The translations under genes were made by a program, and so were the position numbers. The notes under the pieces were generated by a model. That model saw nothing but the letters and a program-made list of their open reading frames with translations, was not told the DNA's origin and did no database searches. Positions 4,076 through 64,000 of a DNA stretch of 64,000 nt are shown piece after piece. Origin of the DNA: Coptis chinensis (lineage: Eukaryota; Streptophyta; Magnoliopsida; Ranunculales; Ranunculaceae); contig CM027380.1 in the NCBI GenBank assembly GCA_015680905.1, forward strand, positions 37,440,001 through 37,504,000. Direction: 5' to 3'. Numbering within the stretch: the stretch's first letter is position 1; every line of letters begins with the position of its first letter.

Positions 4076-5270
4076 AACCCCAAACTCCTCTAACCCAAAA
4101 GCCCAAAACCAAAGGCCCAAAGTCAAAAACTTAAGGCCAAAAGAAAATCTAAAATTTAAAACACATAAGCCCACCCACGATTTGGCCCAATCCCAAATCG
4201 AAATTCACTGTTCATCTTCTTCCTCACAACAACTCCACCACCACAGCCACCACCATTGAACCCAGCGGTTGGGTTCCTTAAGAAAACCCCTACACACCTA
4301 TACCAACAAATCGTGATTCCATTATACGATGAAAAACTCGAATCGACGCCATTAATGGCTTCTCCGAGCTTCAAATGTACCCCAACCCACTACTTAAATC
4401 AACTCTCCAACTAATGTAAATTAACCTACAACAAAACCCCTACTACTTTAATTCATACCATAAACCCAATTCATTGATTCACAATTTTGTCCCTCCCAAC
4501 TGGACCTCCATTAACGCGCCTGTTCCAAAGCTTCCCCTCACCCAATCAAACCAAACACCAATTCAATACCCAACACTTCACCACCACAACCAAACATCAT
4601 CAATCAAAATTCAAACTAACCAGTACAACATCACCACAATGTTCCAACAAAACCAACATTCCAACACACAAGAAAATAGGACGTTTTGGGTTCTGAGGTT
4701 GACGCCATTAACAATCGGTGTCAAGGCTTCGACAACTCAATGCTAAAATTCGTCATAGTTTATTTACTGTAGTATTTTAAAGTTTTGTATCTAACAGCCG
4801 ACACCATTATTAACAGAGTTTACAATATCTCAAATATGGAAAACAGTATTCCTGATATGATTAGCATAAACAAATAATTAAACAAAATAAACATCGTCAG
4901 ACTACTCACTGTTTATAAACCGAACAGCTTTCCGAAAGCGGGAAAAATCCCGAAAGACCGAAGTCGACTGTTGCGCGAAAGGACAATCTTTCTCGTTCAA
5001 AACCTTTTCTTCTTTCAGTAAAACTCCCATTTTTTTTTTTCTAAAACTCTCGCTGTGTTTTTCCCTAAAAACTCTACGTGAGAAACCCCTTTTTATTTTT
5101 TGTTTTAAAAAAACTAACCGAAAAACAAGGATAACACTTATCTAGTTACTTACGGGACTTTTATCCCTAAGCTGATAGTTATCCTATATATGTTTTATCT
5201 ATTTTCATTATTATTATTATTATTATTAATATTACTATTATTATAGGAAAAGCAAATAAAAGACTGGGTG

Positions 5271-6097: not shown

Positions 6098-9000
6098 TTA
6101 GTACAAGATTAAGAAACATACTGTCAGAGATAAAACAATAGATTTAACCGTGACAGAGGTTGGCATGCGGCCATTGTCTTTGCGGAAGAAAAGTCCCCGG
6201 TATAAAGGTTGATTGAGAATAACTATAAGCCCAGTTAGAAGTATTTGCAAAAACATTGATTGCAAATCATTGATATCTCTAGTTTTAATTATTCTGTTGA
6301 GTCCCCCAGCTAAGCTAAACAAGTTGAGCAGTGCGAGGGTTGCTAGGATTGTGAACATGGGAGAAGAGTTTCCGAACTCAAAGATATCTTTTTCATACCT
6401 CTGGGACACATCCTGGTCAGACACCTTGGCAGTGATCTCAAATGCTGAATTCGTATACCCAAGCAACTTTAAGCAGGTGTCAACGAAGCTGAAGAAATAA
6501 GAAGTTGTTCTTTTATACATCCACATTCTTTGTTCATTCCACCAACTTTGAAATGTGCCGCCACACAAAAGGAATTCAATTAAGCTATACGTGTTTTCAG
6601 TTATGATCACATATGCGAATGGTAAAAACCATGGGCTTGAAATCTGAAGGAAGAATGCACGTAGATTGATTAGTTTATTAGCCTTGACCTAAGTTTCAAC
6701 ATTCGGATATTAAAATTAAAAGAATACGAAGAAGCAACAGCACGACCAGAACAAGCTTCCTATCTTAATAATTGGTCGAAAAAACAAAAACAATCTTTTA
6801 GATGGTAGCAGTTACCCTAACAGTTGCTTATGTGCACTTGCATGTTAACATATAAATACACAATTATGTATGTAAGTGAAACCTAAAATTGATTAACCCA
6901 AAAAACTTAAACCAAAGGAAAACAGAAAAGATGTACGCTTACCCTTGGAAACAAGGAGACACCCTTGAGGAGAAAAAGGGGTGGGACGACACTATAAAAT
7001 AAGGTTGGTAAGCAGTTTGGGGCCCATAAGCAGTAGCTACAATATCCCATCAGGAGTCCTAGTTTGATCCTTCCAACACCCTGTGATAAGGGACCATACT
7101 TGGATAGTATTATTTGAAAGTCACCTTCAGACCATCTCTTGTGTTGCACAAGTGTCTGTGCTAATGTGATCGGAGCGATACCAAAGAATCCCGTCCTTGT
7201 TGGATAGAAATAGACAGACTTCCATCCACGACATTGAATTGCTAGCCCAGTTATCACATCCTCAACAGGACAGCCATACTTTAATCCCATCTGTATAAAG
7301 TTTTACCAAGTCAAAAGAAAGTATCATTCTACTGTGTGCGAGCCTTAAGTATGAAATATAGACAGATATACTGACCTCTTTCCCCCATTCAGTACCCTTC
7401 TCAGAGGTGCAATCTGCAAGGATCTTTGTCTGCTCTTCTAGTTCATTTATACTTTCTTGTACTCTGTTGTCAATACTTTTCACAAATTCAACTTTATATT
7501 CCTTGCTGTACTTCCTCCCGCAGAGTGTCTCTCTCCTGTGAAAGCACCCTGTGCCAATATAGAGTGGTCCTCCAAAACCATCTAGACCCGGAAACTCCAT
7601 CTTTTAAAAAATAAATAAAACAATAACAGTTCAGAGACGCACCAAACAAAAACCATAGAAGTATGAAAGCTCTTCATGGTACTAACTTCCTGAATTACAA
7701 TCAATGTTGGAAACTAAACCAAATGAAGTGTACTAGTCTGATGCAGGTGCAACATACCTCTGGGTTAAACACACCATCTGAAATCACTGAAATTTAATAA
7801 TCAATGGAGGGGCAAAACAGTCATAAAAAAGTTAAGGGCAATATCGTCATAAAAATTGGACCAAGAGTCACACATAAAAAAATATTATAGTGCTATTGCA
7901 GTACTGTAGGTGAGAGCCGGAACTTTTAAAGTAGTTAAGATTGGTGTTTTTAGAACCTATTATCTGTGTGTGCATGTATTAGTAGTTAATGAATGTACCT
8001 AGATAGTCTAAGACTGTGTTGCATGGGTACGGGACGGAGTGTCTGGTTTGGACACGGGTATGACAATTTGGACACGGCGAGATCTGAGAATTAGGGTCTG
8101 TTTTGCTTGTGTCTGGATGTCCGTGTCCGTGTGTCCGTACCGTGTCTGCACGCAATACAAAGGAAATTAGAGCGTACCCATGCAACAGAGGTCTAAGAGT
8201 GAAGAGTCTAAGTTATTTTCTAAGCTATAGAGTAACCTAAGTAATCATGTCATATGTATAGAGTGAAGTTTCTAAAGGAATTAGAGTTAAAGACACTTCT
8301 ATAGTGAGTAATCAGAAACTCACCTTCATTCCAACAATCAAAGAACCGCCATAGGTATCATTGTTGGTCAGATTGTTGAAGCACTGAGGATATTGTACGA
8401 AAGCAATCTCATGGCCTTGTTTTTCATCCATGAAGAAACACAATGCATCTCTCACCGATTCAGAGTTGTTGGAATACATGTCACAGTCAACGTTCAGAAT
8501 AATTGTCCCATTACTTATCTTTGATGACACCCTTATCTACATAAAAATGTTATCAAATGTGAACTTCTAAGCATGTGTTAACCATGAATTGTAACTACAA
8601 ATGGTGTATTGATTCTAAAGCTTATATTACCAACGCATTCATTGCTCCAGCTTTAAAGTTATGAGGGTGACTGGGTCTCTTCTCTCGTGCCAAGTAAACC
8701 AACGTTGGCAAAGGAACTCCATCAATATCAATGGCAGAAGGATTTCTTCTGTCAATTAGTACCTAAAGGAATAAAATAACATTTACGAGTATGCTAAGGA
8801 AGTATGTTCATATCTACCGTGAAGCTGTCTATTGGAATATGTATGGTCTGGTACCTGAAGAATTGTTTGGTGGTCACGTGGAGATGAAACTGAGTCCCAT
8901 TCAGAGAATCCTTTGTGTTTTATTCGACTATCTTCTGGAATTCGACCCAACTTAGATGCTGTTTCAATTTGATGCTCCATTGACTCGTACAATTTCTATA

Positions 9001-11644
9001 ATATCCAAAGGAAAAATGTATGCAAATGAAAAAATAAAAATAAATAGTACAACACAGTACGTACAGTAACACACTAGAGGTGTCAACTCTTGCTAATTAA
9101 GAATGAAGAATTATTTTGTGTAGACATTCATTTTAAAAAGCAGTGTGCTTGTCATCCATTTATTCTGTTTCTGGGTTGACACTTAATCTTTTATGTAGAT
9201 TACTAAAAACACAATCAAATAAAAGAAATAATACAAATAAGGGTGAACTAGTATTACCCCCACTAGATGAGCCAATTAGAATTTCCCCCCACTAGATGGG
9301 AAATTAGGGTCTCCCCCCTAAATACACACAAAAAAAATTCGGTCAACCCACTTTGACTTTTTTTTTGTGTGTATTTAGAGGGGAGACCCTAATTTCTCAT
9401 CTAGTGGGGGGAAATCCTAATTGGCTCATCTAGTGGGGGGTAATACTAGTTAACCCTACAAATAATACAGAAGGTGAAAATGCACACTTTTTCAAAAGTT
9501 TTTTGAAAAATGTCAAGGGAAAGGATGATTTACTAGTCGTCTCTCATGTCTCTCGCGAATTGAGAATGTGCACCTTGCTGCAGTATGCCATCATATAATA
9601 ATAAGAATAAGAATAATACTACAAAAAACGTACCTTAATGGATGACAAAACCTTATTATCAACAGGTGGGTCAGACTTTGTAGAGAAATAAGCAGCCGGG
9701 GACCTTGGTTCGATGTTGAACTTCTTGCTGAAAGGTATCCAATGCTTGGCGAACTGAGCGGCCTCGAGGAGAGCATAGAAGGTCAAATCTGACCCACCGT
9801 CGTCGGATACATACACACTCAACTTCTCAGTCGGGTAATTGTACGCCATAACTGATAAGACGGTATTGATCACCATCATAGGTGGCTCTATCGTTGGGTC
9901 CGCAGTACATACAAATATGTCCACCCCCGGCAACTTGTCCTCGTATCTGTTTCATCAACATTTGGGGTCTTCACATTTTTTTTAATTTTCATTTTTGAAC
10001 AACACTTGAGGAGCGTTTTTCTTTTTTTTTGTTTTTCAGCCTATCTTCAATTTTCCGACATAACTAATTAATAATTAGGTGCAATAATTACTAATAAGTT
10101 GATGAGCACACCTTTAAAAAAAAAAAAAAAAAATGGGACCATCTGCAAAAACATGTAGCTGGCTTACTAAGAATGGTAAATTTTAAGGCTGCTTGGAGAT
10201 TCAATTATGGCAGCGGTAATGGAGCCAGATGCTTGACCAAATGAGCATAAAATTGTTGAAACCATAGTATAAAATTTTGGGATATGAGTATTTATCGATA
10301 TTTAATTTTTTGATATGTATCGTAAATATATCTTTTTGTTTGGAGATATTTTATATTGTTTCATATTTAAAATATCGACAAATATTGTGAATATTTCTTG
10401 ATATATTACAATATATCATTTATATTTATTTGAAATATAATGATAAATATTAAATAAAATTGTTACCTACATCAAATATCTCCAAATATCAACAATATTT
10501 TCAATATTTTCAATATTTATAGTCTTATATATCACAATATTTATATATCTTTTGCTGAAATCTAAATAAATATCATCATATTTTGTACTCCAATTTGAAA
10601 CAACACTAAATGACAAACAAAATTACAGTAAAAGAAATCTCACTACCATAGTATCATCCAAAGATGAGTTGTTGCCTTTGGCATATGGTACTTTGGTGCA
10701 ACTTGATTTTGTTGTTGACTGGTTAGTGTCAGGCACTCAGGTCACACCACTGCCAAACCTACGGCCTACAGTCCTACACACATAAACCTAAGGCTACACA
10801 CATAAACCGAAGGCCTACAGTCCAACACATACCCTCACAGATCTCTCATTCTCTCATCCTAAAAGCCACCACCGAATCACTGATATTAGGGGTGAGAGTC
10901 CAGTTGATCAATTGGATTTGGAAGATGCGGGACTATTTATTCGGTCCACACACCCAAGTTGGGTATTTGGTATCTTAATGCGACCTATTCCAGGCAAACT
11001 CTGTATTTTAATCTAGAATAATCTTGGACAACTAAACGGATTCACATGCTTTTTCCTCAAACGACATTGGTTTATACTTTATAGTTTATAGTCTCTCAAA
11101 GGCTGATTAGCATTTGGGACTTGTCGGTAGAGTCAACGACATAGATAATCTAATCCTTAATGATTAGTGAGTAAACTTAAGGCGAAAAAAAAAAAAAAAA
11201 AATAATCACATATTCACATCGTATAGACTTCTGGAAATCATCTATCAAACTCTTGCCTTCAAAATTAGTTATGTAAAGAGAACGAGTGTCAAAAAAAGTA
11301 GCTAGCCTACCTAGGAAGAACTTTGAACTGAGTCTGAGCAGGCAGAGTAGTTTGATTGGTTACCTGTGAGAGAGTCTGTCTCTGAAGGTATAACGATATA
11401 CACGATTCCAACGAACAGATTGAGTCAAGACCCAGTAAAGACCGAACCACAGTTCTGCCAGGAACATGAAGATCCAAACCCATCTTTCTTCAATTTTCAC
11501 TGGTACATGAGTTATTCTATAGACCCATATCATGCTGATACCAAGGAACATGGAAATGGAAAACAATCTGTATGCATTTTTACCCTTCCCTTCCTTTGTC
11601 TCAAAGAGTGGAAGATATCCTTCTCCCTCACTCCCACTTCCCAT
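6098..11644 (-). CDS. CSLE: Cellulose synthase-like protein E, copy A (8 exons)
   Basis: Membrane glycosyltransferase of family GT2, cellulose synthase superfamily, E subgroup. It is expected in Golgi or plasma membrane and its product is not firmly established. Exons on the minus strand: 11644-11364, 9946-9634, 8995-8855, 8762-8631, 8536-8324, 7600-7376, 7290-6943, 6643-6098. All introns are GT-AG and the total is 2199 nt, 732 aa, the usual length. Two N-terminal membrane helices lie in exon 1. Catalytic motifs are VSDDGG (about 140-145), DCD (306-308), VED (444-446) and QHKRW (484-488). The C-terminal membrane helices are in exons 7-8. I chose [15 protein letters not shown] as the start because family members begin this way; an in-frame Met lies 13 codons upstream. 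Oddity: a solo LTR sits inside exon 5, so the last four exon-5 codons (V-G-M-K) come from LTR sequence and its GTGAGT donor. Copy B has V-I-Q-E. Confidence 0.92.
7705..8336. mobile_element. Solo LTR inserted in CSLE A exon 5
   Basis: A 632-bp insertion starts TGTTGGAA and ends TTCCAACA, the inverted TG...CA ends of a copia-type LTR. It is flanked by the 5-bp duplication ATCAA (7700-7704 and 8337-8341). Copy B has the uninterrupted site near 52680-52690. No internal retrotransposon region remains. On the gene strand, the LTR's last 13 nt (8336-8324) are read as exon and followed by GTGAGT, while the ancestral donor GTTAGT persists at 7686-7681. Confidence 0.85.
8008..8197. mobile_element. MITE nested in the solo LTR
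   Basis: About 190 bp with imperfect terminal inverted repeats that share GTTGCATGGGTACG, and possible 3-bp duplications AGT (8005-8007, 8198-8200). The interior is rich in GTGTCCGTGTCC-type repeats. It is nonautonomous and the family is not assigned. Confidence 0.55.
9241..9456. mobile_element. Fold-back MITE in CSLE A intron 2 (9-bp TSD)
   Basis: A 216-bp, almost perfect hairpin. Two arms of about 90 bp start with GGGT-AACTAGTATTACCCC and meet at a short loop around 9340-9365. It is flanked by identical 9-bp duplications TACAAATAA (9232-9240, 9457-9465), which points to a Mutator-type transposase. CSLE B intron 2 lacks the element. Confidence 0.88.
10263..10593. mobile_element. AT-rich hAT-type MITE in CSLE A intron 1
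   Basis: This 331-bp element starts CATAGTATAAAATTTT and ends ATTTTGTACTCCAA, with 7-of-8 matching duplications GTTGAAAC/TTTGAAAC. The interior is dense in ATATCGATA-like words. The equivalent site in CSLE B intron 1 (around 60930-60945) is empty. The element at 37139-37507 is the same family in opposite orientation. Confidence 0.7.
10594..11363. other. CSLE A intron 1, distal part
   Basis: Intronic sequence largely collinear with 60930-61544 in copy B. It includes a poly-A run at 11187-11202. No gene was seen. Confidence 0.6.
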
Positions 11645-30639: not shown

Positions 30640-31380
30640 TTGAGTGCGTGTTCACGCCGTTTGAGTGTACACTCAAACACGTTTGAGTGTAAACTCAAAT
30701 TACATGTCCAAGTTTGAGTGTAAACTCAAATTACATGTCAAGTCGTTTGAGTGTTAATTTGAGTTTGAGTTACACTCAAACTAGATGGCCAAGTCGTTTG
30801 AGTGTATACTCAAACGATATGGACAAATCGTTTGAGTGTTACTCACACTAACACGAAACTACGCCACATGTAGTTTGAGTGTACACTGAAACTACGCGGT
30901 CATGTAGTTTGAGTGTACACTCAAACGACATGACCGTGTAGTTGAGTGTACACTCAAACGACATGGCCGCGTAGTTTGAGTGTTAGTGTGAGTAACACTG
31001 AAACTACGCGGCCATGTAGTTTGAGTGCACACTCAAACGACATGGCCGCGTAGTTTCAGTGTACACTCAAACTACATGGCCGCCAGTAGTTTGAGTGTAC
31101 ACTCAAACGACATGGCCACGTAGTTTCAGTGTACACTCAAACTACATGGCCGCGTAGTTTCAGTGTTAGTGTGAGTAACACTCAAACGACTTGGTCATGT
31201 CGTCCGAGTGTACACTCAAACGACTTGGCGAAGTCGTTTCGCTTTCACTTAAACGACATTGTCAAATTGTTTACGTTTACACTCAAACGACATGACCATG
31301 TCGTTTGAATGTAAAAAACAACGACTTCGCCAAGTCGTTTGAGTGTACACTTCGCATCGTGTGGTCGCTGTCGTTTGAAA
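30640..31380. repeat. Palindrome array GAGTGTACACTC with AACGACATGGCCG linkers
   Basis: About 20 units over 740 bp. The core TTTGAGTGTACACTCAAA is a perfect palindrome. It is flanked by ACGACATGG or CTACATGGCCGCGTAG linkers, themselves partly palindromic. It lies just inside the right end of the MULE and is much more regular than its AT-rich surroundings. Confidence 0.9.
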
Positions 31381-48193: not shown

Positions 48194-48267
48194 GGATCTT
48201 TAGCTCAAATGGGCGAGCACTTTGGAGATATCCAAAGGTGATGGTGGTTCGATTCCACCAAGATCCA
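48194..48267 (+). tRNA. tRNA-like gene with abnormal anticodon loop (likely pseudo-tRNA)
   Basis: A cloverleaf can be drawn. The acceptor is GGATCTT/AAGATCC (7 perfect pairs), then TA, D-arm GCTC-AAATGGGC-GAGC, a CTTTG...CAAAG anticodon stem, GTGAT variable region, and T-arm GGTGG-TTCGATT-CCACC (5 perfect pairs) with A as discriminator. A-box-like (TAGCTCAAATGGGCGAG) and B-box (GGTTCGATTCC) promoters are present. The anticodon loop has 8 nt (GAGATATC) and no T in the usual place before an anticodon, so identity cannot be assigned. It may be an organelle-derived or degraded nuclear tRNA or a SINE head. Confidence 0.55.
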
Positions 48268-48294
48268 CTAAAATTTTAATGTTAATCAAACAAT

Positions 48295-49675
48295 GATTGT
48301 TCATTTTTTACTGTTGAACACGTATTGTTCATATCTGTTTTGGGTATAAACATTTATTGTTCATATTTGCTTTGGGTTCATGTTTTTTTGTTGGTATGAA
48401 CACGTATTTTTTATATCTGTTTTGGGTATGAACAATCAATGTTTATATATGTTTTGGGTATGAACATTTATTGTTTATATATGTTTTGGGTATGAACAAT
48501 CAATGCTCATATCTGTTTTTGGTTCATGTTTTTTTAAGTAGGTATGAACAATCAATGTTCATATATGTTTTGGGTATGAACAATCAATGTTCATGTCTGT
48601 TTTGGGTATGAAAAATCAATGTTCATGTCTGTTTTGGGTATGAACATTTATTGTTCATATATGTTTCGGGTATGAACAATCAATGTTCATATCTATTTTG
48701 GGTTCATGATTTTTTTGGGTCTGAACACAGATTGTTCATACCTAAAGAAGGTATAAACAATCAATGTTCATATCTGTTTTGGGTGTGAACATTTATTGTT
48801 CATATATGTTTTGTTCATACCTATTGTTTATAACTAATGTTCATAATTTGGGGTATGAACAGTTATTGTTCATATCTGTTTTAGGTTCATGTTTTCATAG
48901 CCACAATCAATGTTCATAGTTGATGTTCAGCATGGGTAGGTATGAACAATCAATGTTCATAACTGGATCAATGTTCATATTTGTTTTTGACTCGATCATG
49001 TTTTTTTTAAGTAGGTATGAACATTCAATGTTAATATATGTTTTGGGTATGAACATTTATTGTTCATATATGTTTTAGGTATGAACAATCAATGTTCATG
49101 TCTGTTTTGGGTATGAACATTTATTGTTCATATATGTTTTGGGTATGAACAATCAATGTTCATATCTGTTTTGGGTTCATGTTTTTTTTGGATATGAACA
49201 CGGACTGTTCATACCTAAAGAAGGTATGAACAATCAATGTTCATATCTGTTTTGGGTGTGAACATTTATTGTTCATATCTGTTTTGTTCATACCTATTGT
49301 TCATAGCTAATGTTCATAATTTGGGGTATGAACAGTTATTGTTCATATCTGTTTTGGGTTCATATTTTCATAGCCACAATCAATGTTCATAGTTGATGTT
49401 CAGCATGGGTAGGTATGAACAATCAATGTTCATACGTATTGTGGATATGAACAATTAATGTTCATAACTGGATCAATGTTCATACATGGATAGATATAAA
49501 CAATGTTTGTTCATAGCTCAAATAGGTATGAACACTCATTGTTCATAACTAATGTTTATAATTTGGGTTATGAACAATCAATGTTCATAACTATTGTTCA
49601 TACATGGATAGGTATGGACAATCATTGTTCATACCTATTGTAGGTATGAACAATCAATGTTCATAACCGGGTTGT
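48295..49675. repeat. Minisatellite of hairpin-forming ATGAACA...TGTTCAT units
   Basis: About 40 imperfect units of 30-36 bp over 1.4 kb. Units alternate ATGAACAATCAATGTTCAT and ATGAACATTTATTGTTCAT, separated by ATCTGTTTTGGGT or similar. Each unit is an inverted repeat with a 3-5 nt loop. A larger block (48722-48940) is repeated about 473 bp downstream (49195-49435), so the array grew partly by large-segment duplication. Confidence 0.92.
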
Positions 49676-50189
49676 TTCAGTTGGGTCAGGCCATTTATTT
49701 TTTTTCTTCAGGGGTATACTTGACATTTCATCTACCCGAGCCGTTCTTATTTCGCGTCAAGAGTAAACTTGAACTTTCATCCACCCGGTCTTTGTGAGTG
49801 ATTACAAAAATAACGTGTCCTCTAGAGTTCCTCTTTCGGCCGATTTGTGCTCTAAAGTCGCTCCGAGTAAGAGTTAATGTCGGCGCTAAGCCCATGAGCA
49901 GTCAAGTGGTACCACGATATATAGTCCAAAAAAACTTCTTTTCGAAGAGACGTTTATTTACCCATTCTGCCCAGAAGGACATGTCTTTGCTGACAAGTAA
50001 GAACATATATTTGGCAACCGCGGCCTGGTTCGATGATTTAAAATTAGTCACACCTACATCTCAAAAATTGGTCTACAGATACTCCGGTAACTCTGCCATG
50101 TGACCTTGTTGCCTTTTCTTTTAGCTTCAGTGCCATCCCATAGGAAACACGCGCTAAGCTACAGTGCTTGTTGGTGGCTTTAATAGTAG
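49676..50189. other. Spacer upstream of the RNase H-like pseudogene B
   Basis: An open frame at 49798-50103 (101 codons) has no recognised motif. It may belong to the non-LTR remnant that continues with the RNase H-like segment. Confidence 0.35.
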
Positions 50190-50988: not shown

Positions 50989-53900
50989 TTAGTACAAGAT
51001 TAAGAAACATGCTGTCAGAGATAAAACACTAGATTTAACCGTGACAGAGGTTGGCATGCGGCCATTGTCCTTGCGGAAGAAAAGTCCCCAGTATAAAGGT
51101 AGATTGAGAATAACTACAATCCCAGTTAGAAGTATTTGCAAGAACATTGATTGCAAATCATTGATATCTCTACTTTTAATTATTCTGTTGAGTCCCCCAA
51201 CTAAGCTAAACAAGTTGAGCAGTGCAAGTGTTGCTAGGATTGTAAACATGGGAGAAGAGTTTCCGAACTCAAAGATATCTTTTTCATACCTCTGGGACAC
51301 ATCCTGGTCAGCCACCTTGGCAGTGATCTCAAATGCTGAATCCGAATACCCAAGCAACTTGAAGCAGGTGTCAGTGAAGGCAAAGAAATAAGAAGTTGTT
51401 CTTTTATACATCCACATTCTTTGTTCATTCCACCAACTTTGAAATGTGCCGCCGGACAGAAGGAATTCAATTAAGCTATATGTGATTTCGGTTATGACCA
51501 CATATGCGAATGGTAAAAACCATGGGCTTGAAATCTGAAGGAAGAATGCACGTAGTTTGATTAGTTTATTAGCCTTGATATAAGATTCAACATTTGGATA
51601 TTAAAAATGAAAGAATAGGAAGAAGCAACAGCACGACAAAACAAGCTTCCTATCTTAATAATTGGTCTAAAAAACATCTATTGGAGTATAAAACCAAAAA
51701 CTATCTTTTAGATGTTAGCAGTTATCCTAACAGTTCCTTATTTGCACTTCAATGCTAACATACAAATACATAATTACGTATATAAGTGCGCCTAACAACC
51801 AAAGAAAAATTTACAAACCCAAAAAATCTAAACCAAAGAAAAACAGAAAAGACACTTACCCTTGGAAACAAGGAGACACCCTTGAGGAGAAAAAGGGGTG
51901 GAATGACACTATAATATAAGGTTGCTAAGCAGTTAGGAGCCCATAAACAGTAGCTACAATATCCCATCTGGAGTCCTAGTTTGATCCTTCCAACACCCTG
52001 TGATAAGGGACCATACTTGGATAGTATTATTTGAAAGTCACCTTCAGACCATCTCTTGTGTTGCACAAGTGTCTGAGCTAATGTGATCGGAGCAATACCA
52101 AAGAATCCAGTCCTTGTTGGATTGAAATAGACAGACTTCCATCCACGACATTGAATTGCTAGCCCAGTTATCACATCCTCAACAGGACAGCCATACTTTA
52201 ATCCCATCTGTATAAAGTTTTACTAAGTCAAAAGAAAGTATCATTCTACTGTGTGCGAGCCTAAGTATGAAATATAGACAGATATACTTACCTCTTTCCC
52301 CCATTCAGTCCCCTTCTCAGAGGTGCAATCTGCAAGGATCTTTGTCTGCACATCTAGTTCAGTTATACTTTCTTGTACTCTGTTGTCAATACTTTTCACA
52401 AATTCAAATTTATATTCCTCGCTGTACTTCCTCCCGCAGAGTGTCTCTCTCCTGTGAAAGCACCCAGTGCCAATATAGAGTGGCCCTCCAAAACCATCTA
52501 GACCCGGAAACTCCATCTTTTAAAAAATAAATAAAACAATAATAGTTCAGAGACGCACCAAAAAAATATACATCTTTAAAAAAAAATCATATAAAAAAAT
52601 AGTTCATAGACAGAAAATAAGAAAAAAAAATTGACAAAAATTCAATGTATGAAAGCTCTTCATGGTACTTACTTCCTGAATTACAGTTAAAGCACCACCA
52701 TAGATATCATTTTGGGTCAGATTGTTGAAGCACTGAGGATATTGTACAAAAGCAATCTCATGGCCTTGTTTTTCATCCATGAAGAAACACAATGCATCTC
52801 TCACCGATTCAGAGTTGTTGGAAGACATGTCACAGTCAACGTTCAGAATAATTGTCCCATTACTTATCTTTGATGACACCCTTATCTACATAAAAATGTT
52901 ATCAAATGTGAACTTCTAAGCATGTATGTTATCCATGAATTGTAACTACAAATGGTGTATTGATTCTAAGGCTTATATTAATTACCAACGCATTCATTGC
53001 TCCAGCTTTGAAGTTATGAGGGTGACTGGGTCTCTTCTCTCGCGCCAAGTAAACCAACGTTGGCAAAGGAACTCCATCAATATCAACGGCAGAAGGATTT
53101 CTTCTGTCAATTAGTACCTAAAGGAATAAAACAACGTTTACGCGTATGCTAAGGAAGTATGTTCATATCTACCGTGAAGCTGCGCTTGGAATATGTATGG
53201 TCTGGTACCTGAAGAATTGTTTGATGGTCACGTGGAGATGAAACTGAGTCCCATTCAGAGAATCCTTTGTATTTTATTCGAATATCTTCCGGAATTCGAC
53301 CCAACTTAGATGCTGTTTCAATTCGATGCTCCATCTCCTCATACAATTTCTATAATATGCAAAGGAAAAATGTATGCAAATGCAAAAAGGAAATAAAAAC
53401 AAGTGCAACACAGTAACACACTAAGCTTGTGAACTATTGCTAAGAATGAAGATTGAATTTGTTTAGACATACATATTGAAAGGTAGTGTGTTTGTGAGTT
53501 TGTCATCCATTCGATCTGTTTCAAGGTTGACTACTCTTATTCTTTTATGTAGGTTAGTAAAAACCTAACAAACTAGTAAATGAAATAATACATGAGGTGA
53601 AAATAAATGCCCAATTCTTCAAAAGTTTTTTAAAAATTGTCTTAGGTGAAGGATGGTATAGTCGTGTCTCATGTCTCTTGAGAATTGAGAATGTGCATGA
53701 GAATTGAGAATGTGCATATTGGTGCAGGAGCCGCCAGGAGGTGAAAATGCACACTTCTTCAAAAGCTTTTTAAAAATGATATAGTCGCGTACTCGTGTCT
53801 TATGTCTCTTGTAAACTGAGAATGTGCACATTGGCGCAGTATACCACTATCTATTATCTATTTAGGACTATATAATAGATACTGTCCTAAATAGATTTTT

Positions 53901-56900
53901 AAAAAAATAGTATCTATTTAGGACCATATAATGACTACCGAAAAAAAGAAAAATTAAGACCATATAATAACATAAAAAGAGTAACACTAGCAATAATCCT
54001 CCAAAACACGTACCTTAATGGACGACAGAACCTTATTATCAACAAGTGGGTCAGACTTTGTAGAAAAATAAGCAGATGGGGACCTTGGTTCGATGTTGAA
54101 CTTTTTGCTGAAAGGTATCCAGTGCTTGCCGAACTGAGAGGCCTCGAGGAGAGCATAGAAGGTCAAATCTGACCCACCATCGTCGGATACATACACACTC
54201 AACTTCTCAGTCGGGTAATTGTACGCCATAACTGATAAGACGGTGTTGATCGCCATCATAGGTGGCTCTATCGTTGGGTCCGCAGTACATACAAATATGT
54301 CTACACCCGGCAACTTGTCCTCATATCTGTTTCATCAACATTCAGGGTCTTTACATTTTTTTCATTTTTATTTTGTACAACACTTGAGGAGCTTTTTACT
54401 TTTTTCGTTTTTAAGCCTATCTCCAATCTTCAAACGTAACTATTAATAATTAGGTGTAATAATTGGTTGATGAGCACCTAACTTTTGGCAAGCATCTCCC
54501 ATAGACTAATTGTCAATAAATAAATAATTAATTAATTAATTAAAAATTGAAAAATTGAAAAATAAATAAAGAAGAAGAAGAAGAAGGACTATCTGTAAAA
54601 CATGAAGCTAGCTTACTGTTGAAGTATGTAAAGTATCCCACATTTCTATAAGTTTGGATATGTTTTTAGTAGTTGCTGTTTTGAGTAGCTTGACACCCAA
54701 GTAAGTCAAATATAAATAGATGAAACTATAGGCAGAGTATTAATAACTCTCTAACTCTATTATTCTCTCAGTCTCTCCTCCATTCTTCTCCTTCTTGGTT
54801 CCCCCATTACAATCATGTTTAAACTCTCCTAGTATCACCACTAATACTTACTAAGAAGGATCAAATTAAGGCTGCTTGGAGATTCAGTTATGGCAGCAGT
54901 AATAGAAAGCCAGATTCTCGACTAAATGAGAGGGGTGGTCATCGAGCTCTACCCAAACTAAGCTTTGACATGCTCAAGCTCGACTCGCACTCGACTTAGA
55001 GTTTAATATAGGGCTCAAGCTCGACTCATCCAGTTGTATTAATAGTTCGAGCTCGACTTGGCTCGACTCGCTTGGCACTCGAGCTCAAGCTCAGGTTCAA
55101 GCTCAACCTCAGTTTTGCTCGTTTGAACTCTAATTCGAACTCGAGCTCAAACTCGAAAAAAAAAGTGTCAGCAAAGACTACAATATAGAATTTAAGAGCA
55201 TTCTACCTATTTTTGGGAAAAAAAATTAATAAACCTGCAAATGCCATTGCATTACAATTCTATTTAAGATGGGAGTGCAAAACTAAAACTAGTATAATAC
55301 TAAAATCCAATACCTTCGTTGCTTTTACATCCTAGAAACCAAAAGTATTTTTATACCGATGCATCATTCATTGTGGGCCTAGTTTGTAAGCGAGTTGAGA
55401 AAACCTTAAAGGTGATGAGTTTATATTGGCTCAGCTGAAAGACTCGCACACTGACACTTTTGCGAGCGTGTGTGGATTCATCTAAACTGGTGTTTGCTCT
55501 TCATACATGTCCACCGGCATACTTTAGCATAATAGTCAAGCATTTTGACACCACATACTTTGCTCGACTCTTCAAAACATTATTATCGTGTCTAAATGCC
55601 CTGATTCTAGGAATCTCCAATAGTGTTTGTCTACACATCCTTTGTGACATGGTGGTCTCAACATCTATTGTGCTACAGATCTCATTAGTTTTGCATTTAT
55701 AGCATCTTGAGTCTAGACTGAGGAGCTTCATAACCACATTCTTAGAACCTACAATAGTACTCCTATGGGTGATGACTATGACTGTGTCTTTACTGATTTA
55801 CAACTTTGTCTTCCCGATATTGATCTCAATACTCTAACCTTAAATGTTTTCACCCCCCCCCCCCCTCTAAACCACAACATGTGTTGGCTGAAGCATACTT
55901 TGGTAAGATTATTAGAGAATTTGAGTTGTCAGCTCATTAGAAGGATATGTTGTTGATTGTTCGAGGTCTGAACACGTGAAAGACTTCCTCATTGTTATCC
56001 CTATGGAGTCTTGGACATCGTATGTCTCCGATTGAATATCAAGCCATCATCTGTTACTGGCTCATGATCCCTTTGTATACAGATGACAATCATTGTCCTG
56101 TGTGCAAAATGAGTTGTCTTGATGCATTTGGGGACCACACAACTCAGTGCAGGTATTTCCCTAGATTTAAATACAGGCATGACCACGTGCGAAATGTTTT
56201 GTATGATGTGGTTTGGTGGGTTGGTATACAGGTGAAGAAGGAGGCTCCGATTAACTTCCTTAGCGACCTTAGAGAGGGCAGATCGATGCTCCGATCGACA
56301 AATGTGTTGATTTATAACTGGTTTGATGGTAAACATGCATGTGTTGACGTTATTGAAGTTTCTCCAATGGTGGGTTTGGGAATGGAGACTTCTGTGTAGG
56401 AGAAGCAACTAATAGCGCAGCTGTAGCAACAGGTGGTCTGGAGAAACACGAAGGAGCATGTATTGATCTGCTTAGGAGGGTGCAAAAAGTAATGGATAAC
56501 AATGTGATGACTGCTGGTTCCAATGAATATGTGTTTAGAAAGATTGGGTTTGCTATTCAAAAAGGTCTTGCAGCTCAATTCATTGCGCGCTTGACCTGCA
56601 CATCCTTTGTATGATTTATTTTGGAAATATAATTAATTATATTCTTTTGTCAAAAAAAAAACGTGTTCATAGTCCTTTTCGAGGCCGTCACGGATGCACT
56701 TATGAGATAAACGGTAGTGGGTTTACTATTCCCTATATTTTCATGCATTTCGATAAACAGCGCATGGATTGTCAGTTGAGTATCGATAGGATATGAAATG
56801 AACTTAGGATGACCGTGAACTATATTTGTCACTGGAGAACTCCTTAAAGTCATACGACAAATGGATTTGTTGTCTTTGACTTTGCAACCACGCACTTGGT

Positions 56901-59900
56901 ATACCGTGTCGTCATCTAGATGATACCATACAACCACCTGCTTTGATGGAGAATGGGGAACCCGCATCTGTCATTATTGTGGGCATACCAGAGCCACCCC
57001 CTAAGCCCAACACTACGGATCTTACACTCGCGACACATGAGGGTGACAATAATACCCCTAATCCGCTTGTTGTTGCTTCATCTCTTGATGAGACGTTACT
57101 TGATAGTGCATTCCGCATACCTTTTCGAAATGTGAAAAGTATACCACATGCTTGTCATTTGGCCTTTTCTGGTGTATTGAAATCTGCCCTCTGGGATATC
57201 ACGGCTAATCCTGGTTCAGTTATGCCTTGGGTTTGTCTCCTCCTTTTGTTGTGCTGTACTCTGCAAGTTTTTCAACCATAGAACCGGCAGGAACGTCGTT
57301 CTAGTACTAGGAAAAATCTTCAGCAGAAACATATTCTCCATGCTTTGACGACATGGAATGAGCCTGGTGGGATGTTTCGTCTTTTAGAGTTTGTACTAGA
57401 GCCTCATTCAATCAAGTTAACCATGAAATTCATCCCTACTCAGAATGTACGTCGATGCTTATAGAAAGTTGCTAATGGACATTTTGCTGCAGCGGTAAAA
57501 GTGTTGTCATCATCAGGGGTTGCCACCAATATTGTGGAAACTGTACACGTATTAGAGGAGAAGCACCCGATGCGACAACCTCCTATGAGACCAACTGTTC
57601 CTTTTGATATGATGAGCCCCCTTTATTGGTAGAGAGATACATTATTGTCATGCATTATATCACTTTTGAAAGGCACTTCTTGTGGTCGTGATGGTATCCG
57701 TGTTCAACACTTGTTGGATGCCATGAGTGGTGCTGCAACAATTATATTGTCTGACTTATTAGATGCATGCATTGACTCCTATAGTGAATCTTTGGTTACA
57801 GGGACGATGTCCACAGCCGTTAACGGAATTTATAGCGAGTGCTCCACTTCTTAAGTCGGATAATAGCATTCATCCCATGGTTGTGGGCATGGTTTGGCGT
57901 CATTTTGTTTCCAAGATTGCAATGAAAAGAGTTTCCAAAGATGTGGTAGGGTACTTGTAGGATTTCCAGTATGGGGTCGGTGTGCCTGGTGGAGCAGAGA
58001 CGATTTTGCATGCTATCAATTGCATGGTATATGCTAAAAGTGATAATATCTCTCGTTCTATGTTGCTGGTAGATTTCCAGAATGTCTTTAACATGGTCAA
58101 TCAGACTACCATGTTGAAAGAGGTTCGCATCCGATGCCCGGCTATTGCCCCTTGGGTTGAGTATTTGTATTGTCAACCTGCGACGTTATACTTAGGGGAT
58201 GATTACATATGATCTGCTACTGGGGTTCAGCAAGACGATCCTTTGGGTCCCCTTCTCTTTGCATTGGTGTTGCACCCTCTGATTCTACATATCTAGTCAT
58301 GTTGTCATCAGTTACTGCTCCAGGCTTGGTACTTAGACGATGGGACTCTGATTGGGGATACAAAACACATGGGGACAACTTTGCGCGCATCTGATTCAGG
58401 AAGTAGGTCCTTCTTATGGACTGGTTCTTAATGTGGGTAAAACTAGGATATTTGGCCAGGCCATCACTGGATCCACATCACTCCATTCCCGATTTTTTTC
58501 CTTCAGATTTATCCCGTCCTCTGCAGGGGGCCAGGTTGTTTGGAGGGGTGTGCAGTCATCACTGATTCATCTTTTGTTATGGGCCTTGCTCACAAGCGTG
58601 CTGAAAAGGCTACGACTCTAATTGACTGTTTAGCTGTATTGGAGGATCCACAGTGTGAGTTAGCACTCTTACGAGCTTGTGTTAGGATCTCTAAGTTGGT
58701 TTTTGCAATTTTTACTTGTCCACCATCCTTTTTTAGGGAGGCAGCTAAGAATTTTGACTGACATCTTCGTCGTGTTCTTTCAAGGTATTAATTATAGGTT
58801 ATGATGGTCCTAGCTTCAATGATCTGCAGTAGCGATTAGCGATGCTCCCATTACGTCTTGGTGGGTTAGATATCTATTGTGCCTTTGATGTCTCTACATT
58901 TGCTTTTGTGGCTTCTCGTTTTAAGACTTTTGAGCTTCAGAACCACATTCGTAGAAGTTGTGGTCCAATGCCTATGGGTGAGATCCTTGATGATGCTACC
59001 AGTGCATTGCGCCCATGTCTTCCCGATTTTGACCTTGATTCTCTAGCTGTGAATGCTACCGTCCTCTCAAAACCACCAAAAGTGTTGGCGGAAGCTTTCT
59101 ACAGTAAGATTGTTACTGATATTAAGAGGGAGTTTGAGTTATTTGCTCGTCAAAAAGCTGTCATTGGATGTTTGTAGTCAAAACATGCAAAAGATTTTCT
59201 ACTTGTTATTCCGATGGAGGGACTTAGAGGACAACATATGTCGCAAGTGGAGAATCGTGCTATTCTCCGGTATCGTCTTATGATCCCTTTGTACTATGAG
59301 GGTGGTCTTTGCCCTGTATGCAAAAAGAGTAGACTGGATGCTTTTGGGGACTATGCAGCACATTGCAGACATTTATTAGGTTTTAAATACCGACATGATA
59401 ATGTTAGAGACATTTTATGTGATGCATTTTGGAGGGCTAGGGTACAAATGAAGAAAAAGGCTCCTGTCAATTTTCTCACTGATCCAAATGAGGGCAGATC
59501 GACACTTCGGCTTGCGGATGTCTTGATCTACAGTTAGTCTGAGGGGAAGCATACATGTGTTGATGTAATTGGAGCCTCTCTGTTGGTAGGGCTTGGGAAT
59601 GGGGACTTTGAGGTGGGAGAAACAACTAATAGAGTAACAACAAGAAAGATTGTGAAACATGAGGAAGTTTGTAGGGCTAATTAACATTGTTTTATTCCAT
59701 TCAATTTCGACACTTTCGGTTTCTTGGCACAATAGTCGGTTGAGCTCTTTAAGAGATTGCATAAAGTTATGAACAATAATGTAATAATAGCTGGTTTGAA
59801 CGAGTTTGTATTTAGGAGGATATGATTTGTCATTCAGAAAATACTTGTGGCGCAGTTTGTTGCACGCTTATCTTATTATTTGTAAAACTCATTATTAATA

Positions 59901-61825
59901 AAATTTCCTCTTTATTTAAAAAAAAAACATATGACTCGTGTCTTGCAACACTGACAACTGCAACACTTTAATGCATGTTAATTGATCTTTTAATATTTTC
60001 CCTCTAAAATATCAACAAGACAACACCATCACTGATCGGTGAAGAGATGAGAGTTGAAGAAGAGATGAAAGAGAATCAACTGTTGTGTGTTAGGATTTAG
60101 ATCAGTGTTATCAGACTCGGCCCGGCTCAGCAATTTGACCCGATGAAGAGGTGACCCAGTCACCAAACCGAGTTGGGTCACATATTAGATCGTTTAAGCA
60201 GTTGATGCAGGCCAAACCCGGTTAACTAGTCCGGTTTTTTTATAAACCGCTTTAACCCAGACGGTTTAGTCCGAGCCGTCGATCCATAACTAACTTTAGA
60301 AATTATAAAATTTTAATTTGTTGGTTCTAAGACTCGAACCTTGGGTGACTATTAAACAAGCTAGGATCTCTACAAGTATATACTCGAACCTTAGTTTATT
60401 GGAAAATGAAATGACTCTAAAACCACTTGGGCCACTAATGAAGTTGTAAAAATGTATGTACTAAGTGAATTATATAATATTTTCAACTTAAGTATTGACC
60501 CACTGGTCGAATCGGTGACCCAATGACCTAGTTCTTTTGCTGGGTCAGTGTCCGGGCTGGATCTGATAACTATGATTTTGGGTCTGATAACTATGATTTA
60601 GATTGTTTATTTGTTTAGCAGTTTAGGGTTACGACTTACAACGTTAACTATATATGTTGGGCAATTGGGTATGGGTCATAGCTTTATGAATTGGAAAACT
60701 ACAAATTATATCTGGGTACGGGCATATAAAATGGTTAGCGCATGAGCTTGAGTTGGACTCAATCTAGAATGAGCTTTAAATGAACTTTAAGTTTGAGCTG
60801 GACTCATACTTTTGCACGGACGAATTCGAGTGGATCTTATGACGAGACGAGCTCGAGTTATCCGCGAGCAGCTCGGCTCGAGGCTCGAGGCTCGATGCTC
60901 GATGAACAGCCATAAATGAGCATGAGATTGTTGAAAAAGAACTAAATGACAAACAAGGTTGTAAAAGAAATCACAATACCATCCAAAGTAATTGGTACTT
61001 AGCGTCAGGCCACACCACTACCAAGCCTAGGGCCTACATGCATACTCTCACGTATCTCTCATCCAAGCCCCTGAGTGAGAGCCCATTTTATCAAAGTTGA
61101 GAGTAGCTTATTACTACTTTATGTGGGACTATTTTATTCGGTCCACACACCCAACAGTTAGCTGGTACTTTAAAAAAAAACAATAACTTCGTCATTGATT
61201 GATGATCACTGAATTACAATATGTCCATTAGTCCATTACAACCCAAGGTCGATATGACTTTTACCGGTCTCAGCCAACAAGTGAGCATGTTGTGTAACTG
61301 CTCTAGGGCAAAAGACAGTTCTACAAAACGCAAAAGACTCCTCGGTATTAGTTGGTACTAGGTATCTTAATGCGACCTATTCCAGGAAAACTATTATTTT
61401 TTCAGCAAAAAACAAGAAAAAGAAAAGAATAATCACATATTCACGTCATAATTAGCCATGTAAAAAGAACAGTGTCAGAGAAAGAAGTAGCTAGCGAGGA
61501 ACCTTGAACTGAGTCTGAGCAGACAGAGTAGTTTGATTGGTTACCTGTGAGAGAGTCTGTCTCTGAAGGTATAACGATATACACGATTCCAACGAACAGA
61601 TTGAGTCAAGACCCAGTAAAGACCGAACCACAGTTCTGCCAGGAACATGAAGATCCAAACCCATCTTTCTTCAATTTTCACTGGTACATGAGTTATTCTA
61701 TAGACCCATATCATGCTGATACCAAGGAACATGGAAATGGAAAACAATCTGTATGCATTTTTACCCTTTCCTTCCTTTGTCTCAAAGAGTGGAAGATATC
61801 CTTCTCCCTCACTCATACTTCCCAT
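50989..61825 (-). CDS. CSLE: Cellulose synthase-like protein E, copy B (8 exons)
   Basis: Second intact CSLE gene, nearly identical to copy A. Exons on the minus strand: 61825-61545, 54326-54014, 53349-53209, 53117-52986, 52885-52673, 52516-52292, 52207-51860, 51534-50989. Every exon has the same length as in copy A, for a total of 2199 nt and 732 aa. It keeps VSDDGG, DCD, VED and QHKRW, two N-terminal membrane helices in exon 1 and the C-terminal helices in exons 7-8. Exon 5 ends in V-I-Q-E with a GTAAGT donor, which I take as the ancestral state. Intron 1 is 7.2 kb because of a solo LTR and a nested hAT/LINE insertion. Equal exon lengths and preserved motifs in both genes suggest both have been functional since duplication. 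GT2 enzyme; exact polysaccharide not known from sequence. Confidence 0.93.
54617..54846. mobile_element. Solo LTR in CSLE B intron 1
   Basis: 230 bp starting TGTTGAAGTATG, with TATAAATAG (about 54710) as a likely TATA box. It is flanked by the 5-bp duplication CTTAC (54612-54616, 54847-54851). CSLE A intron 1 has the empty site (GGCTTACTAAGAATGG, about 10162-10175). The right end reads AATA, not the usual CA, so one end may be mutated. Confidence 0.75.
54931..55365. repeat. hAT left subterminal AAGCTCGA repeats
   Basis: Clustered GCTCGACTCG, CAAGCTCGACTC and TCGAGCTC words to about 55150, then AT-rich sequence up to the first LINE. Confidence 0.65.
55366..56661 (+). mobile_element. 5-prime-truncated non-LTR retrotransposon, copy 1
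   Basis: It aligns with 58570-59927 of the neighbouring longer copy. It reads LLRACVDSSKLVFALHTCPP, then after frame breaks the endonuclease-like part: CPVCKMSCLDAFGDH, FKYRHDHVRNVLYD, then RSTNVLIY and CVDVIEV. It ends in a poly-A run (56652-56661). Truncation at the 5-prime end and an A-tail are the normal signature of target-primed reverse transcription. Confidence 0.78.
57640..58450 (+). pseudogene. Non-LTR reverse transcriptase domain
   Basis: LLVDFQNVFNMVNQTTML (RT block with the first Asp), GVQQDDPLGPLLFALVLHPL (about 58227-58286) and WYLDDGTLIGD (58327-58359, catalytic Asp-Asp) follow the standard RT order. Stops at 58210 and 58294 and frame changes around 58395-58430 inactivate it. 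Confidence 0.83.
59205..59870 (+). pseudogene. C-terminal Cys-His and endonuclease-like domain of the non-LTR element
   Basis: LMIPLYYEGGLCPVCKKS, then DAFGDYAAHC and FKYRHDNVRDIL, then LRLADVLIYS, a stop (59536), CVDVIG and later FDTFGFLA. Cys-X2-Cys...His-Cys, followed by R-H-D/N and an (A/P)D...D pair, is the arrangement of the restriction-enzyme-like endonuclease of R2/R4-type elements. The assignment is inferred from motif spacing. Confidence 0.55.
60107..60575. mobile_element. MITE-like inverted-repeat element
   Basis: It begins AGTGTTATCAGACTCGG and ends with a related inverted sequence (GGATCTGATAACTATGA), each followed inward by GCCCGG and GACCCAG words. Target duplication is unclear. 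Confidence 0.5.
60921..61544. other. CSLE B intron 1, promoter-proximal part
   Basis: Collinear with copy A 10246-11363, except for a B-specific insertion of about 200 bp (61155-61355) between AGTTAGCTGGTACT and TTAGTTGGTACT. The nature of this insertion is unclear. Confidence 0.5.
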
Positions 61826-62330: not shown

Positions 62331-62590
62331 TAAGTGTTGTTCTTTTAGATGGTAGCCATCCTGAAAGCAAACGAAGCTTCTGTGCAGTAGGCATAAAAAA
62401 GTTATGGATCTACTATGATTCATTATCAGCTGTCCGAATCATTATAGGGGAGATAACACCTACTTGGCGATTCAGGACTTTGGCACAGGATATTAATGGA
62501 AAATGAAAAATGGTGTGGTAGACTTCAGGGATGTGCTCATTAGAACATATATTGACAAGGCAACTTGGTAGATGATCATCATCATCTTGC
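62331..62590 (+). pseudogene. RNase H-like pseudogene, copy C
   Basis: Reads LLDGSHPES and later KLWIYYDSLSAVRIIIGEI, with an Asp typical of the RNase H active site, then ending DINGK. The N-terminal half seen in copy B is missing. It lies immediately upstream of the CSLE B flank and beside the CSLE C remnant. Confidence 0.65.
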
Positions 62591-62950
62591 TAGACCAAGT
62601 AGCATTGAGGATTGTATTTTGTTTCTGTGCTACAAGAGGATCTGAAGTTTAAATTTATTAGTTTGGTACAACGCTTTGGGCAAGTATATACACTACAATT
62701 TGAAGTCGCTAGAAAAATGATTTGTGTTTGAACAATCGCTGCTTTGCTTCCGCAACATCACTCATTTGTCCAGTTCTTACTCCTCGGAAAATACAAATCA
62801 GTGTTGTGAGCCATAACATTTACATAACTTTATTTTTCATAACGAGCTTTTGTACTCAATAGCAGTCTCTATGACTCTACCAGGAATTGAACGTTACTCA
62901 AATTTTACAACTTCTTCTCTAATTTAATGAAAACTAAATTGAAATGTAGT
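62591..62950. other. CSLE C 3-prime flank
   Basis: Matches the flanks at 5736-6097 and 50591-50988. No gene was seen. Confidence 0.6.
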
Positions 62951-63212
62951 TTAGTACAAGATTAAGAAACATGCTGTCAGATATAAAACACTAGATTTAA
63001 CCGTGACAGAGGTTGGCATGCGGCCATTGTCCTTGCGGAAGAAAAGTCCCCGGTATAAACGTAGATTGAGAATAACTACAAGCCCATTTAGAAGTATTTG
63101 CAAGTAGTTTGATTAGTTTATTAGCCTTGATATAAGATTCAACATTTGGATACTAAAAATGAAAGAATAGGAAGAAGCAACAGCACGACAAACAAGCTTC
63201 TTATCTTAATAA
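62951..63212 (-). pseudogene. CSLE copy C remnant (end of exon 8 and part of intron 7)
   Basis: 62951-63104 encodes the last 50 or so codons of CSLE, including the TAA stop (62951-62953) and the MPTSVTVKS segment. At 63104/63105 the sequence jumps from the middle of exon 8 to intron 7, removing what corresponds to about 51141-51552 in copy B. It then ends at a copia LTR at 63213. It proves a third CSLE unit to the right; whether more of it exists beyond the copia element is outside the window. Confidence 0.85.
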
Positions 63213-63380
63213 TGTAAGCAATGATATTAATAATGGAAGCAATGATAGTATTGTTATTTCCTTTTGTTAATCTTGTAATTACCTTATTGCCTTTTTAGAG
63301 TTCCTCTTATATTAGAATAAATAGAAAGTTATGAGAAAAAACTCTCAAACACTTCATTTTCTCATAAATTAGCTTCTACA
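63213..63380 (+). repeat. 5-prime LTR of a second copia element
   Basis: Starts TGTAAGCAATG and ends TTCTACA, followed by TAGTATCGGAGCC, a two-mismatch version of the tRNA-Met primer site. It inserted in intron 7 of CSLE C after AATAA. It contains a short AGCAATGATA-TATT duplication near its start. Confidence 0.78.
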
Positions 63381-63638: not shown

Positions 63639-64000
63639 ATGGCTACTGACGATGTGTCTAGTATCTCGACTGTTTCTTCGGTTGGAACAAGTGAAGATGT
63701 CCAATCCTTCCACTCTGTTCATGATAATCCGAATATCAAAATTACCTCACAGCTACTAGATGGCTTGAACTATGTTCGATGGGCACAGTCTGTAAAACTG
63801 TTTGTTGGCGGTCGTGGAAAGATAGGCTTTCTTTTGGGAACAGAGAAAGCACCTACAGAAACTGATTCAAAGTATGCTAAGTGGTTCTCAGACGATTCTA
63901 TGGTGCGGACTTGGTTGATTAATTCAATGCAACCAACGATTTCTGCTTGCTATTTATTTACAAACACTGCACATCTTATTTGGGAATCTTTTCGTAAGGT
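63639..64000 (+). CDS. Copia gag, partial (runs off the window)
   Basis: The ATG at 63639 opens 120 uninterrupted codons to the window edge. Motifs ITSQLLDGLNYVRWAQSVK, GFLLGTEKAP, VRTWLINSMQPTIS and HLIWESF are those of the copia gag (UBN2/DUF4219-like) N-terminus. No stop or frameshift is seen, in contrast to the element at 39460, so this one may be younger. The rest of the element lies beyond 64000. Confidence 0.82.
   Translation, partial: MATDDVSSISTVSSVGTSEDVQSFHSVHDNPNIKITSQLLDGLNYVRWAQSVKLFVGGRGKIGFLLGTEKAPTETDSKYAKWFSDDSMVRTWLINSMQPTISACYLFTNTAHLIWESFRK

Follow-up and report, generated by a model that had tools for sequence, protein, structure and literature searches.

Transposable elements that land in exons and are then handled by the splicing machinery have several precedents, the Ds insertions in the maize waxy gene among them. 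Four described systems come closest. In Bassia scoparia, the end of the LTR of Outlaw, a TRIM element in AUX/IAA16, swaps 16 exonic base pairs for 19, which was seen in cDNA (PMC12277486), while in Arabidopsis the Evelknievel element in CMT1 gives splice variants that were verified by RT-PCR and sequencing (PMC6238269). Insertions of ONSEN into Arabidopsis exons can also be spliced out as introns (PMC12112155, PMC8501995). Furthermore, Introners are exon-inserted transposons, mostly DNA-transposon-like, that are removed by splicing (PMC9860276). LTR-supplied splicing of exonic insertions is therefore already known, and the gene described below, termed copy A, adds a clean case, in which a solo LTR would have supplied a replacement splice donor for the one that it displaced.

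Two gene copies and an insert in exon 5

The window, i.e., the whole stretch of 64,000 nt that was analyzed (C4:37440001-37504000), belongs to an assembly of 935.6 Mb in 116 contigs, which is that of a plant to judge from the genes. It holds two cellulose-synthase-like genes, copies A and B, both on the minus strand and in the same orientation. Their features are as follows, with the last exons running to the end of the stop codon:

6098-11644, minus strand: copy A gene, 8 exons, 732 residues, Cellulose_synt family
11644-11364, 9946-9634, 8995-8855, 8762-8631, 8536-8324, 7600-7376, 7290-6943, 6643-6098, minus strand: copy A exons 1-8
8324-8536, minus strand: copy A exon 5, 213 nt (exon 5 of copy B is also 213 nt)
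7376-7600, minus strand: copy A exon 6, acceptor identical to that of copy B
50989-61825, minus strand: copy B gene, the same 8 exons, exon 5 with an empty site
61825-61545, 54326-54014, 53349-53209, 53117-52986, 52885-52673, 52516-52292, 52207-51860, 51534-50989, minus strand: copy B exons 1-8
52667-52672, minus strand: copy B exon-5 donor GTAAGT, at the empty site

Both reading frames are open, each with 732 residues and neither an inner stop nor a frameshift. The copy A protein matches the Pfam family Cellulose_synt (PF03552) with 463 bits, and plant CesA and CslF6 chains of the cellulose synthase superfamily match the gene product as well, while a search of NCBIfam returned only bacterial synthases, as weak matches below the cut-offs. 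The subfamily label CSLE comes from the first-pass annotation of this DNA; the Cellulose_synt domain supports an assignment at the superfamily level. For the comparison of the exon-5 end, six other gene copies were read (B, D, E, F, G, and H), more distant family members being set aside. Copy F is intact; D, G, and H are fragments, and H additionally carries a frameshift. In gene E (L069) the frame runs through all eight exons, interrupted by a single stop in exon 6, and a near-intact frame alone is accordingly a weak argument.

Several further observations concern these genes and their surroundings. Two gene-family fragments, on C5 (L071) and C7 (L072), span part of exon 2 to exon 5 and have identical breakpoints on the two chromosomes, which would fit capture and subsequent copying by a mobile element. 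In exon 1 (11364-11644 vs 61545-61825) copies A and B differ at 3 of 281 sites (1.1%), compared with 2.3-8.0% in the remaining exons, hinting at gene conversion or a later exchange. In copy B, about 7.2 kb separate exon 1 from exon 2. The 3' end of a third gene copy is present as a fragment at 62338-63213, followed at 63640-64000 by a copia-type LTR and the start of a gag region, as read by eye, cut by the end of the window. The intron between exons 2 and 3 of copy A contains, at 9257-9439, a MITE-like inverted repeat with 81-nt arms (96% identity) and a 21-nt spacer, in a stretch unmatched in copy B. Arrays of 32-nt and approximately 34-nt repeats, which also form long inverted repeats, are found at 48242-49701 and 30762-31346.

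Exon 5 of copy A is interrupted by an insert, the parts of which are listed here:

7705-8336, plus strand (LTR sense strand; antisense to the gene): whole insert, solo LTR and two nested elements, 632 bp
7700-7704: target-site duplication ATCAA, low-coordinate copy
8337-8341: target-site duplication ATCAA, high-coordinate copy; last exon-5 bases ahead of the insert
7687-7699, minus strand: displaced old exon-5 end, 13 nt, TGTAATTCAGGAA, intronic under the proposed splicing

The first-pass annotation had described TG...CA ends, an ATCAA duplication, and a position 13 nt upstream of the ancestral donor, and the sequence comparison bore this out: the ends read TGTTGG...CCAACA, the 5-bp duplication stands on either side, and the insertion point lies 13 nt before the ancestral end of exon 5. 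The range originally given, 7681-8341, does hold the insert, but it also spans the old donor and both duplications, the insert proper being limited to 7705-8336. Copies B, D, E, F, G, and H all lack an insert at this exon-5 site.

Composition of the insert

Searches of the genome with the whole insert and with its parts resolved it into three layers. With the nested parts subtracted, the outermost is about 239 bp long and is an LTR; it aligns end to end with single LTRs once these two parts are gapped out, and there is no internal region at the locus. One relative (L017) is a two-LTR element, with LTRs at 4605-4858 and 8622-8879 that are 96.9% identical (blastn) and TGTAT on both sides. Its internal region has, next to the LTR, a PBS-like sequence TGGTGTCAGAGCC, which we presume to match a tRNA, and a gag-type frame. 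Of four relative-element frames that were scanned, three contained zf-CCHC, then rve, then RVT_2, which is the copia order, and the fourth gave no match. The identification of the outer layer as a Ty1/copia-type solo LTR holds on these comparisons. The first-pass reading as a solo LTR was right as to the LTR; the insert is, however, not a plain one but consists of three elements, two of them nested in the LTR. Since relatives form a two-LTR element with domains in copia order, a plain DNA transposon was ruled out. The orientation of the L017 element, as given by its PBS-like site and gag-type frame, places the LTR of copy A antisense to the gene and rules out the sense orientation.

The two nested elements are the following:

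8014-8190: nested hAT-like MITE, 177 bp, with 8-bp duplications GTCTAAGA at 8006-8013 and 8191-8198
7733-7940, minus strand: nested Helitron-like element, 208 bp, TC...CTAG ends, inserted between A and T with no duplication

The MITE has terminal inverted repeats, an 8-bp duplication, many copies in the genome, and an empty site in the LTR relative L015; two other copies (L002 and L005), read by eye, are flanked by different 8-bp repeats. Its length of target-site duplication is one that we take to be typical of hAT elements, and the assignment rests on it. Helitrons begin with TC at the 5' end, finish with CTRR and a nearby hairpin at the 3' end, and insert between A and T without duplicating the target site. 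The second nested element has an empty site in the LTR relatives, and a hairpin of -8.8 kcal/mol near its 3' end, an energy that comes from a single fold without shuffles. The search with the whole insert gave at least 39 other genome matches, 37 of which cover the MITE part and two the Helitron part, and at least 45 further matches in the part search cover the latter.

Neither nested element was found within the LTR in any of the eight relatives that were aligned in full, so that both probably arrived after the LTR had reached copy A; it is less probable that the LTR came from a source in which the MITE and the Helitron-like element were already present. The two nested elements point, if not conclusively, to an insertion that is not very recent. 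The LTR of copy A is 23-28% diverged from all eight fully aligned relatives (72-77% identity), and none of them qualifies as its source. As this divergence stands against a dS of about 0.1 between copies A and B, the insertion cannot be dated, and dating by LTR divergence was ruled out for a solo LTR with such relatives.

The LTR edge as a probable replacement donor

The features on which the proposed splicing depends are these:

8324-8336, minus strand: LTR edge, 13 nt, TGTTGGAATGAAG, proposed new exon-5 end
8318-8323, minus strand: proposed new 5' splice site GTGAGT, in the LTR, best U1 match among 57 GTs
7681-7686, minus strand: original donor of exon 5, ancestral to the insertion; GTTAGT here but GTAAGT in all six other copies read
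8312-8314, minus strand: TGA, first in-frame stop if the insert is unspliced

In the gene direction, exon 5 of copy A ends ...TTGAT followed by TGTTGGAATGAAG/GTGAGT, the slash here and below marking the proposed splice junction. The gene models agree with the earlier claim that copy B continues for 13 nt after the equivalent point and then has GTAAGT, while copy A continues for 13 nt of LTR edge and then has GTGAGT. Exon 5 of copy A is thus composed of 200 nt before the insertion point and 13 nt of the insert, with the frame kept. Translation of the junctions likewise upheld the equal length of 213 nt in both genes and the replacement of I-Q-E by G-M-K as the only change: the exon 5-6 junction of copy B reads GALTVIQE/MEFPG. 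The replaced residues occupy a variable place, being IQE, ICE, or ITK in the paralogues and FFD at the aligned place in one plant CesA.

We propose that a Ty1/copia-type retrotransposon inserted into copy A antisense to the gene, 13 nt short of the end of exon 5, and was later reduced to a solo LTR, into which the hAT-like MITE and the Helitron-like element probably landed afterwards. On its antisense strand this LTR carries AG/GTGAGTTT at a distance of 13 nt from the edge. Most likely, the spliceosome now ends exon 5 at this donor and splices it to the exon-6 acceptor, which has not changed; a single intron of 723 nt would then take out the LTR together with the old donor and the 13 coding bases that the insertion displaced. 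With 13 bases exchanged for 13, frame and length would be kept with only I-Q-E changed to G-M-K, and copy A probably still makes a protein of normal length with three changed residues. We consider this account of the locus likely.

Donors were scored by a simple duplex energy to the 5' end of U1, in the form that we take this sequence to have, rather than by a trained plant splice model. On this scale the new donor reached -10.7 kcal/mol and ranked first among the 57 GTs between the start of exon 5 and the end of the intron; the second-best GT of copy A, at 8455 (-8.3), is in frame and lies in exon sequence also present in copy B. The exon-5 donor of copy B scored -7.0. The old donor, GTTAGT, which persists from position 7686 onward as had been noted (within the intron under the proposed splicing), scored -3.1, ranking 18th in copy A and being the weakest of 12 named sites of the two genes. 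With the insert in the opposite orientation, a single GT of -5 or better would occur within 100 nt, out of frame and past a stop. All six other copies read (B, D, E, F, G, and H) have GTAAGT at the old-donor position, and GTTAGT is found in copy A only. This change could be a chance event, as it concerns one base, and D, G, and H, which keep GTAAGT, are fragments without evident constraint. What remains of the old intron is 86 nt in copy A compared with 155-169 nt in B, D, E, and F. Both the A-only base change and the smaller remnant fit the use of the new donor, without proving it. The exon-6 donor of copy A, GTCAGT, is no sign of decay, since it is common to A, E, and F.

A chance test, framed after the case had been seen, used 40,000 random edges and 19,989 edges of real window DNA. 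A GT with a U1 energy of -7.0 or lower, the value of copy B, stood at exactly 13 nt in 54 of the 40,000 random edges and 27 of the 19,989 window edges, and a donor of the strength found in copy A (-10.7) did so in 3 of the 40,000 random ones. When any in-frame, stop-free donor within 60 nt was counted, the random edges gave 526/40,000 at the strength of copy B and 32/40,000 at that of copy A, and the window edges 353/19,989 and 30/19,989, respectively. The fitting donor at the edge of the insert is more than chance. Given a donor, the frame is retained with a chance of about 1/3, and the exact match of 13 nt for 13 nt is partly luck of the insertion position.

A search of the genome for other copies of the LTR, which had been recommended with the first-pass annotation, pointed in the same direction. 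All ten LTR copies read, i.e., that of copy A and nine others in seven places, carry AG/GTGAGTTT near the same edge, at a distance of 13 nt in eight and 12 nt in two. The match counts are lower bounds, and two partial matches that start past the edge (C2:74556556 and C2:73164898) are not part of the ten; copies C2 and C9c, with the ends TGCTGG and TGTTAG, were anchored by hand. Since the motif is kept despite an identity of 72-77% to the LTR of copy A, the donor was carried in by the element, and its origin by mutation at the copy A locus was ruled out by the nine other copies. A bolder proposal, that the family has a portable, near-consensus antisense donor, through which splicing tends to remove copies inserted antisense into an exon that is followed by an intron, is in our judgment quite unlikely; if true, the family would be self-buffering against gene disruption, as a retrotransposon counterpart of Introners. 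The constancy of the motif is explained equally well by conservation of LTR ends for integration or by an inverted repeat in U5. In C3 and C9c, the small inverted repeat to which the motif belongs has a different partner arm, and the opposite LTR end is likewise well conserved, which makes integration-based conservation as good an account as splicing.

The comparison of copies A and B, with the three junction codons left out, gave a dN/dS of 0.30 at a dS of about 0.1. When substitutions were assigned to branches with F as the outgroup (E where needed) and 10 ambiguous, 3 junction, and all gapped codons were dropped, 18 synonymous and 24 nonsynonymous substitutions fell on the A branch, for a ratio of about 0.37 that departs from neutrality with p = 0.0016, compared with 20 and 16, respectively, on the B branch (ratio about 0.22). 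These counts show purifying selection on the A branch, which includes time before the insertion and so does not isolate the period after it. The higher nonsynonymous ratio in A than in B could also mean that the LTR donor is used in only part of the transcripts, that most of the product is aberrant, and that copy A has little function beside copy B. Such partial use, which overlaps with the replacement donor and differs from it in degree, is supported by the case of Evelknievel, where intact mRNA was restored in only 25% of splicing events; the frame-restoring CMT1 variant, however, used a non-canonical GC donor (PMC6238269). The donor of copy A is strong by U1 energy, and we regard partial use as unlikely.

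A further reading is that copy A is a recent or silent pseudogene, with a poorly working LTR donor, transcripts that keep the insert or terminate within it, and decay to follow. Genes can be silenced by antisense LTRs and by nested elements, and among the relatives D, G, and H are fragments, H with its frameshift, while E has its stop. However, the frame of copy A is intact, its branch evolved under purifying selection, its donor is stronger than that of copy B by U1 energy, and the nested elements suggest, if they do not prove, an insertion that is not very recent, so that we consider a pseudogene unlikely. It is highly improbable that splicing runs from the donor at 8323 to an acceptor ending at 7714, includes a 27-nt exon (7713-7687, FPTLIVIQE), and then links the old donor with exon 6, for a protein longer by nine residues: of the seven frame-compatible acceptors at least 60 nt from the donor that give an exon of less than 400 nt, one yields this stop-free exon with a TTTGGTTTAG context, five meet stops, and one gives a 3-nt exon, but the path requires a 27-nt microexon together with an old donor that is the weakest named site and no longer reads GTAAGT. 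The replacement of the donor by the LTR edge, as first suggested, is thus supported by the strength of the donor, by its occurrence at the edge of the other LTR copies read, by the selective constraint seen along the A branch, and, weakly, by the base change in the old donor of copy A.

Comparison with described systems

Among the titles and abstract openings listed in the literature searches, none described a solo LTR whose donor takes over from the original one in frame and without a change in length, and no transposon insertion of this type in CSLE was found among the matches listed in the literature search. In copy A, a coding insertion has seemingly been made tolerable by the element's own splice site, with the empty-site paralogue B beside it, and the new intron would now hold two further transposons. 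As the donor is common to the LTR family, the idea of elements that arrive ready to be spliced out becomes testable in related plants.

The known systems compare with copy A as follows. Outlaw in AUX/IAA16 shares with it the 5-bp target-site duplication and the exchange of exon bases for bases of the LTR end. However, Outlaw sits at the start of an exon and supplies the acceptor side, whereas the LTR in copy A would supply the donor, which makes the two mirror images; moreover, Outlaw is full length, very recent, and adds one residue to the protein, while copy A has a solo LTR with nested elements and a predicted protein of unchanged length. In the SV1 variant of Evelknievel, just as proposed for copy A, a donor at the LTR end of an exonic element is joined to the natural downstream acceptor, but in SV1 the reading frame is lost, the variant that restores it relies on different splice sites, and the element is full length. 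ONSEN is similar in being an exonic LTR retrotransposon removed as an intron, although its insertions are new and experimental, whereas copy A carries a natural solo LTR. Finally, Introners create new introns, whereas in copy A, a single case, an existing intron would have been enlarged and its donor replaced.
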